Notes under the pieces: generated by a model
What the model was told of the DNA's origin: nothing
Databases searched by the model: none
Seen by the model: only the letters and a program-made list of their open reading frames with translations
Translations under genes and position numbers: made by a program
Source of the DNA: a virus
Length of the DNA stretch: 56,058 nucleotides
Reading direction: 5' to 3' (one strand)
IMG/VR virus record: IMGVR_UViG_3300030102_004176
Location: 1-56,058 of that record
Shown here: positions 25,435 to 37,656 of the stretch, piece after piece
Layout of the letters: every line of letters begins with the position of its first letter
Numbering within the stretch: position 1 is the first letter of the stretch

Positions 25435-25463
25435 TTGCATTTTCTTATGACCTAGATTATAGT
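25435..25463 (+). promoter_or_regulatory. Promoter of the terL/structural operon
   Basis: TTGCAT (25435-25440), 17 bp, TATAGT (25458-25463). The ATG at 25471 starts seven bases after the -10, so transcription would start at or beside the initiation codon. ATTAACAATTTG (25477-25488), close to the operator-like site of units 1-3, overlaps the first codons. Confidence 0.55.
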
Positions 25464-25470
25464 GTTTTGT

Positions 25471-26946
25471 ATGTCAATTAACAATTTGACCACAGACAAA
25501 TTGAGGCTCGAAGTAGAGAGACTCTTGATAAAAAACATTAAACTGTGCCAAGATAATTTTTTATATTTTGTAAAAGAGATGTGGCCTGATTTTATATATC
25601 GTAAAACCAAACTAAGGGATAACTGGGGTCATCATCAAATCATAGCAAATGAATTTACTAAAGTAGCTTCAGATAAAAAAGGGAGGCTCATAATAAATAT
25701 GCCTCCTAGACACACTAAATCAGAATTTGCTTCAATTTATTTTCCGGCATGGATGATAGGGAAGTTTCCTAAAATGAAAATTATGCAAGTATCACATAAC
25801 ACAGAACTTGCAGTACGATTTGGTTCTAAGGTTCGAAACATTGTTGGTTCATCTGAGTATAAACAAATCTTTGGTGACGTCAGATTGCGAGAAGATTCAA
25901 AAGCCAAAGGTAGATGGGAGACTAATCAAGGGGGTGAATATTACGCAGCTGGCGTCGGGGCGTCCATCACGGGTCGTGGTGCGGACTTACTGATTATTGA
26001 TGATCCACACACGGAACAAGATTCTTTATCTGACATGGCGATGGAACGTGCTTATGAATGGTATGCTTCAGGTCCAAGACAGCGTTTACAACCTGGAGGT
26101 TCAATTTTATTAGTAATGACGAGATGGGCAGAAGATGATTTAACCGGTCGTTTATTGAAGGCTCAAACTGAACCGAAAGCAGATTCTTGGCGTCAAATTT
26201 CATTCCCAGCGATCCTCGGTTCAGGGAACCCAGTCTGGCCTGAGTACTGGAACTTAGAAGAATTAGAAAAGATCAAAGCATCATTACCGATACGAAACTG
26301 GTCTGCTCAGTATATGCAGAATCCAACCAGTGAGGAAGGTGCAATTTTAAAACGAGAATGGTGGCGACCTTGGAAAGGACCCATACCGAATTTGATGCAT
26401 GTCATACAAAGTTATGATACAGCGTTCAGTAAGAGAGAGACAGCTGACTATTCAGCCATAACAACTTGGGGTGTATTTTTTCCAGAAGAAGGTGGGGGAC
26501 CCAATATAATTTTACTTGATGCTTTACGGGGTAAGTATGATTTTCCAGAATTAAAAGCAGTCGCTTTAGATGCACATAAGTATTGGGAACCCGAAAGTAT
26601 TATTATTGAACAGAAAGCTAGTGGTGAACCTTTGACTCAAGAGTTTAGAAGAATGGGTATACCGGTCATACCATTTGTTCCAAGTAAGGGTAATGACAAA
26701 CATACACGTGTTAATGCGACCTCTCCTATTTTTGAAAGTGGTGCTGTATGGTATCCGTATGGTGAGCATTTTGCAGAAGAAGTGATAGAGGAGTGTGCTG
26801 CATTTCCAAATGGTGCAAATGACGATTATGTTGACTCAACGACTCAAGCCCTACTAAGGTATCGCCAAGGCAACTTTGTTGAGTTATACTCAGATTATAT
26901 AGATAACGAGGATAGACCTCCTAAGGAATATAGATATTATGGATGA
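25471..26946 (+). CDS. terL: Terminase large subunit
   Basis: 491 aa from ATG 25471 (GTG 25462 is less likely). ATPase: PPRHTKSE (residues 78-85) as Walker A-like loop, LLIIDDPH as Walker B, and TRWAEDD as coupling motif. Nuclease domain: IQSYDTAFSKRE, IIIEQKASGEPL and NDDYVDSTTQAL supply the acidic metal ligands. This is an intact packaging motor and headful or unit-length nuclease. There is no Shine-Dalgarno, consistent with a leaderless start. The stop overlaps the next gene by 8 bp. Confidence 0.95.
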   Translation: MSINNLTTDKLRLEVERLLIKNIKLCQDNFLYFVKEMWPDFIYRKTKLRDNWGHHQIIANEFTKVASDKKGRLIINMPPRHTKSEFASIYFPAWMIGKFPKMKIMQVSHNTELAVRFGSKVRNIVGSSEYKQIFGDVRLREDSKAKGRWETNQGGEYYAAGVGASITGRGADLLIIDDPHTEQDSLSDMAMERAYEWYASGPRQRLQPGGSILLVMTRWAEDDLTGRLLKAQTEPKADSWRQISFPAILGSGNPVWPEYWNLEELEKIKASLPIRNWSAQYMQNPTSEEGAILKREWWRPWKGPIPNLMHVIQSYDTAFSKRETADYSAITTWGVFFPEEGGGPNIILLDALRGKYDFPELKAVALDAHKYWEPESIIIEQKASGEPLTQEFRRMGIPVIPFVPSKGNDKHTRVNATSPIFESGAVWYPYGEHFAEEVIEECAAFPNGANDDYVDSTTQALLRYRQGNFVELYSDYIDNEDRPPKEYRYYG

Positions 26947-29286: not shown

Positions 29287-29619
29287 ATGGCAAAAAAAAG
29301 AAAAACATTAGAAGAAAGATTTAGTCTAGATGACATCGTTTTAGGTACTGATTTTGAAGGTGCCTTTTTTGATGAACCCGAACAACCTAAATTAAAACCA
29401 AGCAACATGATTGGTGAAATAGCCTCTAAAAATAAAGCGTTTAAAAAAGCTAACAGAAAAAGACGCATGTACCCTTTACCAGTAAGCAGCATATCAGAAG
29501 ATGTTGTCAAGTTAGCTCCATATCAAGTTATACCTGAAGCAATGAAAAAAGCTAGTAAAGGTGAGTTTGTCATGGTAAAAACAAAAATAGGTAAAAACAA
29601 AAAAACAAGGATTACATAA
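29287..29619 (+). CDS. Basic hypothetical protein before the portal, 110 aa
   Basis: Lys/Arg-rich (MAKKRKTLEERF, then NKAFKKANRKRRMYPLP; KIGKNKKTRIT at the end) with an acidic loop (DFEGAFFDEPEQP). Shares one base with the portal start (TAATGG). Possibly a head or DNA-contact protein; no family recognised. Confidence 0.6.
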   Translation: MAKKRKTLEERFSLDDIVLGTDFEGAFFDEPEQPKLKPSNMIGEIASKNKAFKKANRKRRMYPLPVSSISEDVVKLAPYQVIPEAMKKASKGEFVMVKTKIGKNKKTRIT

Positions 29620-31952
29620 TGGATGATGAAGATAATCTAGAAGAACAGGTTCAACCTGTTGATGTTGAAATTGAAGAACCTACCGATGAAGTTGTAGAAG
29701 AACAAGATGAACCTCAACAAGATTTTAATGCAAACTTAGCCGAAAACCTTGACGATAGAGTTTTAACATCTATGGCTCAACAGTTAATTTCTGATTACAG
29801 AAAAGACAAAGAGTCTAGAGGGGATTGGGAAAAATCATATACATCTGGACTTGATTTACTGGGTTTTAAATATGAGGGCGAGGGTCAACCTTTTAGAGGA
29901 GCTTCAAGTGTAACACACCCCTTACTTGCTGAATCCGTGACACAGTTTCAGGCACAAGCTTACAAAGAATTATTACCAAGTGATGGACCTGTAAAAACTA
30001 TGGTTGTAGGAGATGCAACTCCAGACAAAATAGATCAAGCTCAAAGAGTCAAAGACTTTATGAATTATATGGTTACAGAAGTTATGGAAGAGTATACACC
30101 AGAATTTGATCAAATGTTATTTTATTTACCTCTTGCAGGATCATCATTTAAAAAAGTTTATTACGACGATTTAATGCAGCGCGCTGTCAGTAAATTTGTT
30201 CCAGCAGAAGATTTAGTTGTGCCCTATTATGCATCCGATTTGAAAGACTGTGAAAGAATTACACACTGTATCAAGATGAGCGAAAATGATTTACTAAAAA
30301 AAATAAGCACAGGATTCTATAGAGATGTAAAAATTTATCCTACAGCTGCTGACGATAATGAAGTTCAGGATAAATATGACGAATTGGAGGGACTATCTCC
30401 AACTAAAGATAAAGAGTATCAGTATAATATTCTTGAAATGCATGTTGATATTGATTTAGAAGAATACGAGGTTGAAAATTCTGAAAAGAAAATAAAAGTA
30501 CCTTACATTGTTACTATCGATGAGGGATCACAAGAGGTTTTAAGTATATATCGAAACTATTTACCTGACGATCAATTATTTACTAGGCGTGAATATTTTG
30601 TGCATTACAAGTTTTTGCCCGGTTTAGGGTTTTATGGTTTTGGTTTAATACATATGATTGGTGGTTTGAGTAGAACTGCAACTGCTGCATTAAGACAATT
30701 GTTAGATGCAGGGACTTTAGCAAACTTACCAGCAGGTTTTAAGTCTAGAGGACTACGAATTAGAGACGATGAACAACCATTTCAACCAGGAGAGTTTAGA
30801 GATGTTGATGCACCTGGTGGAAATATTAAAGATCAGTTTCAAATTTTGCCTTTTAAAGAGCCTAGTAGCGTCTTAATGCAGCTTTTAGGCTTTGTTGTTC
30901 AAGCTGGACAGCGTTTTGCCTCTATTGCAGACATGCAAATTGGTGAAGATTCACAAAATCGTGCAGTTGGAACAACTTTGGCTCTTATGGAACGTGGTTC
31001 TAGGGTAATGAGTGCTATTCATAAGCGTTGTTACTACTCAATGCGACAAGAATTTAGACTTTTATCTAATGTTTTTGCCGAATATTTACCACCTGACTAC
31101 CCATACGCTGTTTATGGTGCCGATAGAGTGGTAAAAGCATTAGATTTTTCACCAGAAGTTGATGTTATACCAGTTGCGGACCCAAATTCTTTCTCAATGA
31201 GTCAAAGAGTAACGTTAGCATCACAACAATTACAAATTGCAAATGCTGCACCACAATTACACAACATTAGGGAGGCATATAGACGTGTTTATGAGTCTTT
31301 AGGTGCAAAAAAGATAGATGATTTACTTTTACCAGAAAAAAAACCAGAACCTATGGACCCTGGTGCAGAAAATTCACTAGCTTTACAAGCAAAACCACTT
31401 AAAGCATTTTATTTTCAAAACCATGATGCTCATATTGCAGCTCACGCTGCATTTATACAATCAAGAATGGTGCAGGCTAACCCTTTAGTGTATTCAATAT
31501 TACAAGCACACATATCTGAACATATTTCTTTCAAAGCAAGAGCACAAACTCTTCTATATATTAAAACAGAAAGACCTGATTTAGTTGAACTAGAGCAAAC
31601 AGATCCACAAGCATATCTTGCTGAATCAGAATCTATCATAGCTAGAACGATTGCTGAACTTACACAACAATTAGTTATGGCTGAGCAGGGCACAGAAAAA
31701 CCAGACCCTGTTGTAATGCTTAAAAACAGAGAACTTGATATTAAAGCTATGGATATGCAGAGAAAAGCTGCTGAGTTCCAGCAACAAGAACAAAGAAAAA
31801 CAGGTGAGTTTGACGAACGTATTGATCTTGATAAAATGAAAAGAGAAGATGCTGAAGAAGCATCAAAAGAAAGAATAAGAGTAGCTGATGAAAAGCTTGA
31901 GTTAAATGCTTTTAAAGTTGGCTTAGATCAGGCAGGTAAAAAAAATGAGTGA
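29619..31952 (+). CDS. Portal protein
   Basis: 777 aa. After an acidic N-terminus, FRGASSVTHPLLAESVTQFQ, AYKELLPSDGPVKT and YLPLAGSSFKKVYYDD match the portal family of marine podoviruses I recall, with an overall length like P22/N4-type portals. GFGLIHMIGGLSRTATAALR lies about where the central helix would be. The C-terminal ~120 residues form a Gln/Glu/Lys-rich helical barrel (MDMQRKAAEFQQQEQRKTGE). It forms the dodecameric DNA gate and docks TerL and the tail adaptors. Confidence 0.85.
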   Translation: MDDEDNLEEQVQPVDVEIEEPTDEVVEEQDEPQQDFNANLAENLDDRVLTSMAQQLISDYRKDKESRGDWEKSYTSGLDLLGFKYEGEGQPFRGASSVTHPLLAESVTQFQAQAYKELLPSDGPVKTMVVGDATPDKIDQAQRVKDFMNYMVTEVMEEYTPEFDQMLFYLPLAGSSFKKVYYDDLMQRAVSKFVPAEDLVVPYYASDLKDCERITHCIKMSENDLLKKISTGFYRDVKIYPTAADDNEVQDKYDELEGLSPTKDKEYQYNILEMHVDIDLEEYEVENSEKKIKVPYIVTIDEGSQEVLSIYRNYLPDDQLFTRREYFVHYKFLPGLGFYGFGLIHMIGGLSRTATAALRQLLDAGTLANLPAGFKSRGLRIRDDEQPFQPGEFRDVDAPGGNIKDQFQILPFKEPSSVLMQLLGFVVQAGQRFASIADMQIGEDSQNRAVGTTLALMERGSRVMSAIHKRCYYSMRQEFRLLSNVFAEYLPPDYPYAVYGADRVVKALDFSPEVDVIPVADPNSFSMSQRVTLASQQLQIANAAPQLHNIREAYRRVYESLGAKKIDDLLLPEKKPEPMDPGAENSLALQAKPLKAFYFQNHDAHIAAHAAFIQSRMVQANPLVYSILQAHISEHISFKARAQTLLYIKTERPDLVELEQTDPQAYLAESESIIARTIAELTQQLVMAEQGTEKPDPVVMLKNRELDIKAMDMQRKAAEFQQQEQRKTGEFDERIDLDKMKREDAEEASKERIRVADEKLELNAFKVGLDQAGKKNE

Positions 31953-32497: not shown

Positions 32498-33096
32498 TTA
32501 TAAAAGGCGACTCTACAGAATACCATTTACTCACTAAACACATAGGTAAACTTAAAATAGACAGAGCCACTTTGACTTGTGAAATAGGTCTAAGAGAAGG
32601 TTTAGGTTCGAAGATAATTATGGATGCAATTAGAGATCACAAACCACCACTTTATAAACATGTCGCTGTTGATCCGTACAATAATTTAAGTTATCAGCAT
32701 ACTGATGATGAGAAAGAGACCAGTGCTGATTACACAGAAGATATGAAACAAAGAGTTGTTTCTTATTTATATCAAAACTATCAAGAGTTTGATTTTTATC
32801 ATATGACAGATGAGTATTATTTTGAAGCTATGAAAGATGGACATCAGTTTTCAATTAATGGTAACTGTATGATATATGGCTTATACAAAGTTGTTCATCT
32901 TGATGGACCACATACGACGCATGCTGTCTTAGAAGAATTAAAGTTTTTTATCCCACGTATGGATGAAGAGGGTTTAATAATAATAGATGATTACACACGC
33001 CTTAAGATGGGTATTGTGGATATGCTCCTGAAGACTTATAATTTTAATGTTGCTGAAAAAGGTGACAATAAAATTATTTTTAAAAAGGAGATATAA
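32494..33096 (+). CDS. Class I methyltransferase-fold protein (Methyltransf_24/TylF-like)
   Basis: 200 aa. LTCEIGLREGLGSKIIMDAI is motif I of a Rossmann SAM-binding site, KHVAVDPYNNL gives the acidic residue after strand 2, and VHLDGPHTTHAVLEEL is the 'HIDG-H' motif found in macrocin-O-methyltransferase-like enzymes. GLIIIDDYTR closes the sheet with a DD that may bind metal. The substrate is unknown; a sugar, a small metabolite or virion glycan is plausible. It sits in the portal-holin part of the late operon. Stop and next start share a base. Confidence 0.75.
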   Translation: MIIKGDSTEYHLLTKHIGKLKIDRATLTCEIGLREGLGSKIIMDAIRDHKPPLYKHVAVDPYNNLSYQHTDDEKETSADYTEDMKQRVVSYLYQNYQEFDFYHMTDEYYFEAMKDGHQFSINGNCMIYGLYKVVHLDGPHTTHAVLEELKFFIPRMDEEGLIIIDDYTRLKMGIVDMLLKTYNFNVAEKGDNKIIFKKEI

Positions 33097-33464
33097 TGTT
33101 TCAAGCAATTATCGGTCCTGTCGCCAAGTTAGCTTCAACTTGGATTGAAGGACGTCAAAAAAAAGCTGAACTTAAATCAAAAGTTGAGTTAACAAAACTA
33201 GAAGCAACAAGAACAAGAATTGAGAAGGAAGGGACTTGGGACGAAAAACAAGCTGATGCAGCAGCAGATTCGTGGAAAGACGAAGCTTGGACCCTTGCGT
33301 TCATTGCCATAATTTTTGCATCCTTCATACCTGCACTTCAACCTTATATGAAAGAGGGATTTGTTTTTCTAAAAAACGATTGTCCTGAATGGTTAAGTTG
33401 GGGTATTCTAGCTTCGATTGCAGGATCATTCGGGCTAAAGAGTATTGCTAAGTTTAAAAAATAG
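33096..33464 (+). CDS. GTA-type three-helix holin (Holin_3-like)
   Basis: Good AAGGAG ribosome site. The order is: weakly hydrophobic N-terminus (IIGPVAKLASTWIEG), a charged helix (KKAELKSKVELTKLEATR), SWKDEAWTLAFIAIIFASFIPAL and LSWGILASIAGSFGLKSI. This is the pattern I know from the holin family that releases gene transfer agents and from many marine phages ('SWKDE...'). It would make lesions in the inner membrane at lysis. The M15-family endolysin is 6 kb away. Confidence 0.85.
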   Translation: MFQAIIGPVAKLASTWIEGRQKKAELKSKVELTKLEATRTRIEKEGTWDEKQADAAADSWKDEAWTLAFIAIIFASFIPALQPYMKEGFVFLKNDCPEWLSWGILASIAGSFGLKSIAKFKK

Positions 33465-33529
33465 ACTAAAATATGTTTAGTGGACTGCGGTCACGAGGAC
33501 AACCAGCACTTTAATTTTAGGAGATAATT

Positions 33530-33604
33530 ATGTGGTCTAAACCTGTAATTACAGAAATTTCTGTTGGTCTTGAGATTAACAGTTATGCCTGTGCTGAAAA
33601 ATAA
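33530..33604 (+). CDS. pqqA: PqqA-like PQQ precursor peptide, 24 aa
   Basis: ATG 33530 follows a strong ribosome site (TAGGAG, 8 bases). The 24-residue product begins MWSKPVITEISVG and ends VGLEINSYACAEK. PqqA is the ribosomally made precursor of pyrroloquinoline quinone; PqqE joins the Glu and Tyr side chains of an E-x3-Y motif, here E15 and Y19. W2, P5, V6, E9, I10, V12, G13, E15, S18, Y19, A22 and E23 all agree with the Methylobacterium type as I recall it. No other pqq gene is in the window, so host PqqB-E enzymes would be needed. A hairpin follows directly. Confidence 0.85.
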   Translation: MWSKPVITEISVGLEINSYACAEK

Positions 33605-33609
33605 AGTGA

Positions 33610-33626
33610 TGGGGACTCAGTCCCCA
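33610..33626 (+). other. Hairpin just after the PqqA-like gene
   Basis: TGGGGACT and AGTCCCCA are mirror complements around one C, giving a 7-bp GC-rich stem with a 3-nt loop. No U-tract follows, so it is more likely an mRNA-stabilising or processing element than an intrinsic terminator. The terminator after the capsid gene uses the same arms (GGGGACT/AGTCCCC). Confidence 0.6.
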
Positions 33627-33640
33627 CACTAAATTTGTAT

Positions 33641-33760
33641 ATGGCTACTAAGATTGACAGATTATTGTGGTTTTTATTACAAATTTTATTTGGCTTTATG
33701 ATAGGTTTATTATTATTTTTAATTTTATATTTTATAGGAGTTTATTATGTTATTAACTAA
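33641..33760 (+). CDS. Small membrane protein, 39 aa
   Basis: MATKIDRLLWF then one long transmembrane helix (FMIGLLLFLILYFIGVYYV). A short charged N-terminus and a single helix are typical of phage lysis or membrane-modifying peptides. It overlaps the next small gene by 14 bp, whose ribosome site (TAGGAG) lies inside it. Confidence 0.5.
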   Translation: MATKIDRLLWFLLQILFGFMIGLLLFLILYFIGVYYVIN

Positions 33761-33869
33761 AAATTTTATAAAATTTAATAACCTTTTGGTTAAAATACCT
33801 AATCAAACAAAACGTGTTTGGGATCTATCTGAAAACAGATGGGGTTACAAACTTGTCAAAGATATTTAG
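33747..33869 (+). CDS. Small basic protein, 40 aa
   Basis: Good TAGGAG ribosome site and ATG 33747. Basic and aromatic (IPNQTKRVWDLSENRWGYKL). No family recognised; possibly a ligand for a host protein. Confidence 0.5.
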   Translation: MLLTKNFIKFNNLLVKIPNQTKRVWDLSENRWGYKLVKDI

Positions 33870-34005
33870 AATAAAAGATTGTAGTGGCTCAAAGTTTCCA
33901 AGGAAAAGACGCTTACTTGAATATGTGTCACCAGTAAAATATTATGGTAAAAAGGTTTCAAAAAGTAGAAATAATAATTGCAAAGAAGACAAAGAGAAGG
34001 TATAA
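33853..34005 (+). CDS. Doubtful basic reading frame, 50 aa
   Basis: TTG start at 33853 without a ribosome site; the frame reaches 34005 (CSGSKFPRKRRLLEYVSPVK). It overlaps the frame at 33944-34066 in another phase, so at most one of the two is likely to be used over the shared part. Confidence 0.25.
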   Translation: MSKIFRIKDCSGSKFPRKRRLLEYVSPVKYYGKKVSKSRNNNCKEDKEKV

Positions 34006-34066
34006 CAAAAAAGGATTTACACATAGAAAAAAACTTGGACCTAAGTCTCATTTAAGACATGCTTGA
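33944..34066 (+). CDS. Small highly basic protein, 40 aa
   Basis: ATG 33944; the C-terminal part KKTKRRYNKKGFTHRKKLGP is very basic, like a nucleic-acid-binding tail. No clear ribosome site. Its stop lies 8 bp inside the next gene, in keeping with the coupling seen elsewhere in the operon. Confidence 0.4.
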   Translation: MVKRFQKVEIIIAKKTKRRYNKKGFTHRKKLGPKSHLRHA

Positions 34067-34265
34067 TATCGATACAATACAAACAGTTCGACATTATATC
34101 AAAAAACAAATTCAACAAACTAAAGATCATATTTGCTATGGTATAGACAAACTTGATCAACTACATTATGCTAAAGGCAAGCTCGCAGCCCTAGAGGCTG
34201 TGCTTCAGGATCTAAAAGACCTGCAAAATAGAGAGGATAGTGTAGATGACATTGATCAAACCTAA
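34059..34265 (+). CDS. Coiled-coil protein, 68 aa
   Basis: Heptad-rich helix over most of its length (VRHYIKKQIQQTKDHI and LAALEAVLQDLKDLQ). It overlaps the GroES-like gene by 20 bp and precedes the scaffold gene by one gene, so an assembly role is plausible. No family recognised. Confidence 0.6.
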   Translation: MLDIDTIQTVRHYIKKQIQQTKDHICYGIDKLDQLHYAKGKLAALEAVLQDLKDLQNREDSVDDIDQT

Positions 34266-34680
34266 TACTAAGTTAGTCACACCTGACAAAGATGATGACG
34301 ACGAACCCTTAGTTCCGAAGGGTGCGAAAGAAACGGAACAATATCTTAAATTATTACCAAAACCAGTAGGATACAGACTTTTGATAAGACCTTATCAACC
34401 TAAGGCTAAAACAAAAGGCGGTCTTTATTTAACTGAAAAAACTCTTGAAACTCAACAAATGACAACAGTGGTTGGACTCGTCGTTAAAATGGGTGATCTT
34501 TGTTATAAAGATAAGGAGAAGTTTCCAACTGGACCTTGGTGCAAAGAGGGGCAGTTTATCGTTTATGGACGATATGCTGGCGCTCGATTTAAGACAAAAT
34601 ATGGTGAACATCGTATTTTAAACGATGATGAAATCATAGGAACTATTAACAAACCCGAGGATATCCTCGCATTATTCTAA
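34246..34680 (+). CDS. GroES-like co-chaperonin
   Basis: 144 aa. After an acidic N-terminal extension, PKPVGYRLLIRPYQPKAKTK, GGLYLTEKT, VVGLVVKMGDLCYKD, EGQFIVYGRYAGARFKTKYG and EHRILNDDEIIGTI follow the Cpn10 fold strand by strand. The segment between GGLYL and TTVVG is the mobile loop that would touch GroEL. T4 gp31 and some cyanophages replace host GroES for capsid folding; the position immediately before the scaffold and capsid genes fits that role here. Confidence 0.85.
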   Translation: MTLIKPNTKLVTPDKDDDDEPLVPKGAKETEQYLKLLPKPVGYRLLIRPYQPKAKTKGGLYLTEKTLETQQMTTVVGLVVKMGDLCYKDKEKFPTGPWCKEGQFIVYGRYAGARFKTKYGEHRILNDDEIIGTINKPEDILALF

Positions 34681-36744: not shown

Positions 36745-37656
36745 ATGGCTATTTCAAGATCACAACTGGTCAAAGAGCTAGAGCCTGGTTTAAATGCTCT
36801 CTTTGGCTTAGAATATAATCGTTACGAAAACGAACATGCAGAAATTTTCGTTGCAGAAGCATCGGATAGAGCTTTTGAAGAAGAAGTAATGCTAAGCGGT
36901 TTCGGTAGTGCTCCAGTAAAAGAAGAAGGTTCGGGCGTCGCATTTGACCAAGCAACTGAATCTTTCACTGCGAGATACACTCACGAAACAATCGCAATGG
37001 CATTTGCTATCACTGAAGAAGCAATTGAAGATAATCTGTACGACAGATTAGCTGCTAGATACACAAGAGCACTTGCTCGTTCAATGGCTAACACTAAACA
37101 AGTAAAAGCTGCAAACGTACTTAACAATGCGTTTAATTCTAACTTTGCTGGTGGTGATGGTGTTGAACTATGTTCGACTGCTCATCCAATCGCTACTGGT
37201 GGTACGTTCGCAAATGAACTATCAACAGCTGCCGATTTATCTGAAACATCACTAGAGCAGTCTCTAATTGATATTGCTGCTTTCGTTGATGAAAGAGGAC
37301 TTAAAATTGCAATGCAAGGTGTTAAACTGATCATTCCAAAAGAACTTCAGTTTACTGCTGAGAGAATTTTAAGATCACCTCAGAGAGTTGGTACTGCTGA
37401 TAATGACATCAATGCTATGGCTTCTATGGGTATGATCCCACAAGGTTATAGAGTTAATCATTATCTAACAGATACTGATGCTTTCTTCATCATGACTGAT
37501 GCTCCAAACGGAATGAAACAATTCGTAAGAGCACCAATTAAAACTGCAATCGAAGGTGACTTTGATACTGGTAACGTCAGATTTAAAGCAAGAGAAAGAT
37601 ATTCTTTTGGTTTCTCTGACCCTAGAGGTATTTTTGGTTCACCTGGAGCTGCATAG
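36745..37656 (+). CDS. Major capsid protein (HK97-fold, Mu gpT-like)
   Basis: 303 aa. The N-terminal helix (SRSQLVKELEPGLNALFGLE), RYTHETIAMAFAITEEAIED, an Ala-rich backbone helix and PIKTAIEGDFDTGNVRFKAR followed by RYSFGFSDPRGIFGS near the end match the capsid family I associate with Mu-type head proteins and marine podoviruses. Ribosome site GGGAG precedes ATG and an intrinsic terminator follows, so this gene ends the head operon at high expression. Confidence 0.85.
   Translation: MAISRSQLVKELEPGLNALFGLEYNRYENEHAEIFVAEASDRAFEEEVMLSGFGSAPVKEEGSGVAFDQATESFTARYTHETIAMAFAITEEAIEDNLYDRLAARYTRALARSMANTKQVKAANVLNNAFNSNFAGGDGVELCSTAHPIATGGTFANELSTAADLSETSLEQSLIDIAAFVDERGLKIAMQGVKLIIPKELQFTAERILRSPQRVGTADNDINAMASMGMIPQGYRVNHYLTDTDAFFIMTDAPNGMKQFVRAPIKTAIEGDFDTGNVRFKARERYSFGFSDPRGIFGSPGAA

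Follow-up and report, generated by a model that had tools for sequence, protein, structure and literature searches.

The window, by which we mean the entire 56,058-base stretch of viral DNA analysed here (one IMG/VR record), contains at positions 33530-33604 of the plus strand an open reading frame of 24 codons, with its ATG at 33530 and its stop codon at 33602-33604, and the translation of this frame is MWSKPVITEISVGLEINSYACAEK. The frame, assigned below as pqqA, belongs to the late head region and lies between a gene coding for 122 aa and several small ORFs, upstream of the genes for GroES and the capsid protein. The features discussed are as follows.

25462..26946, plus strand: terminase large subunit, TerL (phrog_38; 76% identical to HTVC023P)
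29619..31952, plus strand: portal protein (phrog_1216; 65% identical to HTVC023P)
33096..33464, plus strand: upstream neighbour of pqqA, 122 aa, of unknown function (phrog_2524; a conserved neighbour in relatives)
33474..33515, plus strand: leader RNA element, a covarying 11-pair stem with conserved bulges (model R1, 55.1 bits; covariation)
33519..33523, plus strand: ribosome-binding site AGGAG, six bases 5' of the ATG (sequence)
33530..33604, plus strand: pqqA, PQQ precursor peptide of 24 aa, coordinates with the stop codon (exceeds the cut-offs of PF08042 and TIGR02107; synteny; selection)
33609..33627, plus strand: hairpin just after the pqqA stop (alignment; inverted repeat, terminator-like on the minus strand only)
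33747..33869, plus strand: gene of 40 aa, downstream of pqqA (also on chromosomes of the HIMB59 order; basis for the host inference)
34246..34680, plus strand: co-chaperonin GroES (PF00166, phrog_3188)
36745..37656, plus strand: major capsid protein (PF25209, phrog_371)

The peptide scored 29.3 bits against PF08042, whose curated cut-off is 21.1, and 36.4 bits against the NCBIfam equivalog TIGR02107, whose cut-off is 20. When the record was searched in six frames, this ORF was its single PqqA match (E 4.6e-7). A custom PqqA profile gave the ORF 53.9 bits, against a top score of 12.7 over 200 dinucleotide-shuffled copies of the window; that profile includes relatives collected by pattern and is thus not independent, whereas the Pfam and NCBIfam profiles are. 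No match to the 24-mer was found in PHROGs or among PDB sequences, as is expected at such a length. The sequence-only reading had described 24 codons behind a ribosome site and a PqqA-like residue pattern, and had proposed PF08042 as a check. All of this was borne out: the G-G-A-G of the ribosome site is conserved in the aligned relatives, the residues W2, P5, E9, V12, G13, E15, S18, Y19, A22 and E23 are all present, and the cut-offs of both profiles are exceeded. Residues E15 and Y19 have the E-x3-Y spacing of the pair cross-linked by PqqE. Judged by these matches, the peptide belongs to the PqqA family and its gene is an authentic viral pqqA.

Matches to PHROGs and Pfam reveal endolysin and DNA polymerase A genes in the window besides those for TerL, portal, GroES and major capsid. 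The portal gene on one side of pqqA and the GroES and capsid genes on the other mark a true viral genome, and from the shared TerL, portal, capsid and GroES genes with their conserved order, the window is a podovirus of the HTVC023P type. The four annotated phages nearest to it (HTVC023P, HTVC027P, psg01 and DSL-LC04) have no pqqA anywhere in their genomes. The earlier placement of the gene inside a head-gene operon stands as far as position is concerned but needs qualification, since pqqA has its own conserved leader and 3' hairpin and therefore gives the impression of a small cassette in its own right. The 3' hairpin shows a compensatory change, reading GGGGAC..GTCCCC in the window and GGGAGC..GCTCCC in relatives. 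A methyltransferase-like gene (PF13578, 32494-33096), kept in close relatives, is located just upstream of the locus.

Relatives were gathered through their GroES and capsid proteins, without reference to PqqA, and 55 loci were counted that have the upstream neighbour and whose GroES reaches 70% identity or more, near-identical contigs included. Between that neighbour and GroES, pqqA was found in 40 of the 55 loci. It was absent from the other 15, which comprise all loci with GroES at or below 80% identity and four with GroES at or above 87%; this distribution indicates gain or loss of pqqA as a unit and, given the 15 syntenic relatives that lack it, a dispensable gene. In some of the relatives without pqqA, the 40-aa gene comes directly after the upstream neighbour. 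Remoter contigs of the HTVC023P type bear a pqqA of the INCYACAE type between portal and GroES. The set collected through GroES comprises 11 distinct pqqA alleles, in which 12 codons vary, 11 of them only synonymously and one between V and I. By this measure the phage pqqA is under purifying selection. Conservation of E15, Y19 and the reading frame at the same locus in related phages, on which the first interpretation had been made to depend, was likewise observed.

The leader precedes the ribosome site without covering it. Its stem proper spans 33479-33510, and it is the only match to model R1 in the window. This 32-nt element 5' of pqqA is kept across phages whose genes otherwise differ. In an alignment of 47 sequences the stem is 98.3% paired, with double compensatory changes at seven pairs, and its covariation amounts to 0.259, compared with 0.108 (sd 0.010) in shuffled alignments and at most 0.07 in slid ones. 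The bulged G, the C and the AA opposite are fixed or almost fixed. A DNA palindrome is a disfavoured explanation, as U-G pairs occupy 14 cells of the stem and favour RNA. Rfam 15 produced only chance matches below the gathering threshold in 33300-34100, leaving the leader without a counterpart there.

The DNA pattern used to search IMG/VR for the leader holds no information on pqqA. Among the matches listed, it was found in 54 distinct contexts, of which 52 continue into pqqA and two are cut off just inside that gene, where the stretch ends. A looser pattern gave 55 contexts with pqqA; the exceptions were a truncated contig, two chance matches of high GC content and one host rpoH locus. A general phage late-promoter element was rejected, since the window has a single copy of the leader and practically all copies in IMG/VR precede pqqA. 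Several carriers of the leader share no other gene with the window; some of these unrelated carriers encode phage proteins such as tape measure or ribonucleotide reductase, while for the L658 group the phage evidence is thin. The methylophages tested lack the leader. Contigs of metagenome-assembled genomes labelled Maricaulis (L230) and Flavobacteriaceae (L278) also carry the phage-type leader with pqqA. The L230 peptide is identical to that of the window, and the contig itself is a stretch of the window's phage type, either misbinned or DNA of an infected cell.

In the bacterial order HIMB59, one leader was found directly before the gene for RpoH (sigma-32), with a similar ribosome-site region (L705; G015:C2:10941-10984), and it was absent at 27 other rpoH loci of the order. 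A role as the general rpoH leader of these bacteria was accordingly rejected (one of 28 loci), as were weak matches in other alphaproteobacteria, which overlap coding sequence or cover only part of the model. A 2009 survey of Pelagibacter RNAs makes no mention of rpoH or sigma factors. It is possible that the leader before this single host rpoH reflects transfer between phage and host. As to its role, we infer a stabilising or regulatory 5' element.

A separate question is how widespread viral pqqA genes are. Two degenerate DNA patterns each returned about 119 or more stretches of IMG/VR, and among the matches listed, two types of viral PqqA can be distinguished: a beta type with GFEVTMY and an alpha type with GLEIN[S/C]YACA. 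For an unbiased test of the reactive pair, the scans were repeated with the codons of Glu15 and Tyr19 left free, and both residues were present without exception in the 173 distinct viral genes recovered, 67 of the alpha and 106 of the beta type. A peptide encoded on one viral contig (L196) is PqqA-like and has a long C-terminal tail rich in Asp (MEEWNTPEVTEEAVGLEINSYACAAMADDDNGDNGD...). On other HTVC023P-like contigs (L095, L025 and L043) a beta-type pqqA stands just after the capsid gene, and from these contigs, members of the HTVC023P-like group may infect Methylophilales.

In an annotated phage collection of 50,697 records, beta-type and gamma-like queries returned the same 12 records: nine Methylophilales isolates (Venkman, P19250A, MEP301, MEP401, MEP402 and four Melnitz phages), one uncultured podovirus and two contigs named 'Acinetobacter phage'. 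Of these last two misfiled contigs we inspected one, 'Acinetobacter phage MD-2021a' (L355, CAKLQF020000010.1), and rejected it as a bacterial contig with ppk and a chromosomal pqqB-E operon. The alpha type, searched by tblastn with the window peptide and two other peptides of this type, had no match in the collection. Five representative phage PqqAs pass both the Pfam and the NCBIfam profiles. The gene occupies differing genome positions in the cultured Methylophilales phages (Venkman, P19250A, MEP301, MEP402, Melnitz; L350-L354). That so short a gene might be overlooked in related phages had been anticipated, and so it proved in all 10 true phage records: in five there is no annotated feature over pqqA and in five only a 'hypothetical protein', which in both records inspected (Melnitz and MW202481) is an ORF of the opposite strand.

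It might be argued that pqqA is a passenger, a host copy that travels between phages and their hosts in a small cassette, selfish or neutral, and brings the phage no advantage. The patchy occurrence of pqqA at the locus and the presence of its leader before a single rpoH gene of the host order would agree with this. However, synonymous change is in strong excess, the gene is retained in unrelated phages together with a leader stem that compensates its mutations, and the annotated cases are confined to phages of methylotrophs; we regard such a passenger as extremely improbable. We are inclined to believe, with modest confidence, that phages of PQQ-dependent methanol oxidisers, in unrelated groups and with both alphaproteobacterial and Methylophilales hosts, repeatedly took up pqqA, and that the alpha-type cassette carries a leader which would control or boost expression and which is also found before one host rpoH.

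The host of the window's phage is probably an alphaproteobacterium of the HIMB59/AEGEAN-169 order, an assignment based on the 40-aa neighbour gene and on similarity of the PqqA peptides. The product of the former, MLLTKNFIKFNNLLVKIPNQTKRVWDLSENRWGYKLVKDI, has no Pfam match, and the gene also occurs in related phages devoid of pqqA. Its homologs, up to 84% identical, were found in 20 of the 32 genomes of the order to which MED-G10 belongs (labelled HIMB59), and among 385 genomes sampled across the class it matched only four HIMB59-order members, besides one weak match interrupted by stops. Compared with the PqqA that is most frequent in HIMB59-type genomes, the window PqqA shows 87% identity over 23 residues. 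Within the same 32 genomes, pqqA is present in 31, in one to five copies each, and PqqE in 22, its lack in the remaining 10 being probably due to genome incompleteness. Genomes of this order possess an operon pqqA and up to four further pqqA genes (L257, L290, L344, L757 and others).

In MED-G10, pqqA, pqqB, pqqC and pqqE adjoin a gene for a PQQ alcohol dehydrogenase (xoxF), whose best solved relatives are lanthanide-dependent XoxF enzymes (873 bits), and the neighbourhood further includes a methanol-related cytochrome c, a MoxJ-like protein and PQQ-associated ABC genes. This arrangement suggests that the HIMB59 marine clade oxidises methanol. The most highly expressed marine xoxF5 genes come from an unnamed alphaproteobacterial 'Clade X' (PMC11996626), and our guess would be that 'Clade X' is HIMB59. 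No literature on PQQ in AEGEAN-169 was found.

An alternative host would be SAR11 proper (Pelagibacterales) or another alphaproteobacterium, and indeed HTVC023P and HTVC027P were isolated on SAR11 HTCC1062. Both these phages lack pqqA, however, and hardly any homologs of the 40-aa neighbour gene lie outside the HIMB59 order, which makes such a host unlikely in our view. As HIMB59 is AEGEAN-169, also called SAR11 subclade V (PMC10308909), the kinship of the window's phage with SAR11 phages fits the HIMB59 host.

The PqqA peptide is consumed in PQQ synthesis, and PQQ serves as cofactor of periplasmic alcohol and sugar dehydrogenases. We consider it likely that the phage pqqA is an auxiliary metabolic gene that feeds PQQ synthesis of the host and thereby would sustain methanol oxidation during infection. 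According to this proposal, phage PqqA would be translated in quantity late in infection and bound by host PqqD, host PqqE would cross-link Glu15 to Tyr19, and host PqqB and PqqC would complete PQQ from the cross-linked peptide. Since one PqqA is consumed per PQQ made, the extra peptide could raise or maintain PQQ while host transcription fails, and the PQQ-dependent periplasmic methanol dehydrogenase (XoxF) would keep feeding electrons to respiration during virion assembly. The phage gene would thus supply a substrate, not an enzyme, and the Methylophilales phages may act likewise with the beta-type PqqA. Viral flanks, a homolog in HIMB59-type genomes and purifying selection, three marks of an auxiliary metabolic gene, are found for pqqA.

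PqqE, together with PqqD, was shown to cross-link a Glu and a Tyr of PqqA (PMC10906245). Five pqqA copies are known in a PQQ-producing methylotroph (PMC9851590), and a cell extract converted 70-80% of added PqqA into PQQ (as told in PMC9851590). In Acetobacter, overexpression of pqqAB or pqqABCDE, the only sets overexpressed, increased the PQQ level (PMC7936290). These reports (PMC9851590, PMC7936290) could be taken as indirect precedents, by analogy, for more PQQ from extra PqqA.

The opposite effect may also be imagined, namely that the phage peptide is a decoy which occupies PqqD and PqqE and lowers host PQQ, diverting SAM or cutting periplasmic oxidation. The binding residues are conserved and an excess of a substrate mimic could compete with the host peptide, but a decoy would have no need of both reactive residues, and Glu15 and Tyr19 were invariant in the 173 viral genes even with the codons free. 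Moreover, a normal substrate would become PQQ, and competition would be weak where host genomes already hold several pqqA copies. We find titration very improbable; feeding of host PQQ synthesis appears to fit better, because the Glu and Tyr are invariant, the phages are those of methanol oxidisers and the probable host has several spare pqqA copies.

The pathway could also serve another end than methanol dehydrogenase, either as a cross-linked signal made from a peptide recognised by PqqD and PqqE or as PQQ acting as a redox compound or antioxidant. Further PqqA-like peptides on viral contigs, such as that of L196 with its acidic tail, are in keeping with this, and hosts are known for only some of these phages. 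Yet the link to methylotroph hosts and the proximity of pqq genes to xoxF in the order inferred as host point to supply of a dehydrogenase cofactor, so that a different end seems quite improbable and feeding of methanol oxidation is the reading we retain.

A viral PqqA was reported in the Lake Baikal population VP_266, where the passages concerned propose support of a PQQ-dependent methanol dehydrogenase in methylotrophs (PMC7678222), and viral PqqA is listed among the auxiliary metabolic genes of a reservoir study (PMC13188868). Neither 'PQQ' nor 'quinone' occurs in the paper on the HTVC023P group that describes 41 new auxiliary metabolic genes (PMC9599517), nor in those on MEP301, MEP401/402 and Venkman, and the Melnitz paper has PQQ solely as a medium supplement. 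In the open-licence literature we found no report of viral pqqA in cultured methylophages or in phages of the HTVC023P type, nor of the leader RNA. The breadth of viral PqqA, the host pattern and the leader RNA thus appear to be new.

In the surface ocean, transcripts of PQQ dehydrogenases come predominantly from the methanol dehydrogenase XoxF (PMC11996626). Should phages provide the precursor of the XoxF cofactor, infection would touch marine methanol turnover through a gene of 24 codons that annotation misses, and the gene would represent a type of auxiliary metabolic gene in which a consumed peptide substrate takes the place of an enzyme. Common to all nine Methylophilales phage isolates found, pqqA could serve to recognise phages that infect methylotrophs or members of the HIMB59 clade. 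The leader adds a new covarying RNA element.

In comparison with known systems, the window peptide resembles cellular PqqA (PF08042/TIGR02107) in length, in its W-x-x-P start and in the G-L-E-x3-Y core containing the cross-linked Glu and Tyr, whereas the phage copy is a solitary gene placed in the head region behind its own leader RNA. Its genome resembles the HTVC023P-type pelagiphages (PMC9599517) in TerL (76%), in the portal protein (65%) and in the position of GroES between the portal and capsid genes, but differs from cultured HTVC023P and HTVC027P in having pqqA. VP_266 shares with the window a virus-encoded PqqA and the same functional idea; it is, however, a single virus population from fresh water, which encodes methanol dehydrogenase as well, and in the passages devoted to it a survey, a leader RNA, an analysis of selection and a link to alphaproteobacterial hosts are all absent (PMC7678222). 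A further parallel is offered by the solitary, multi-copy pqqA genes of methylotroph genomes (PMC9851590), in which, too, separately placed extra genes supply the precursor peptide, although these are cellular, not viral.
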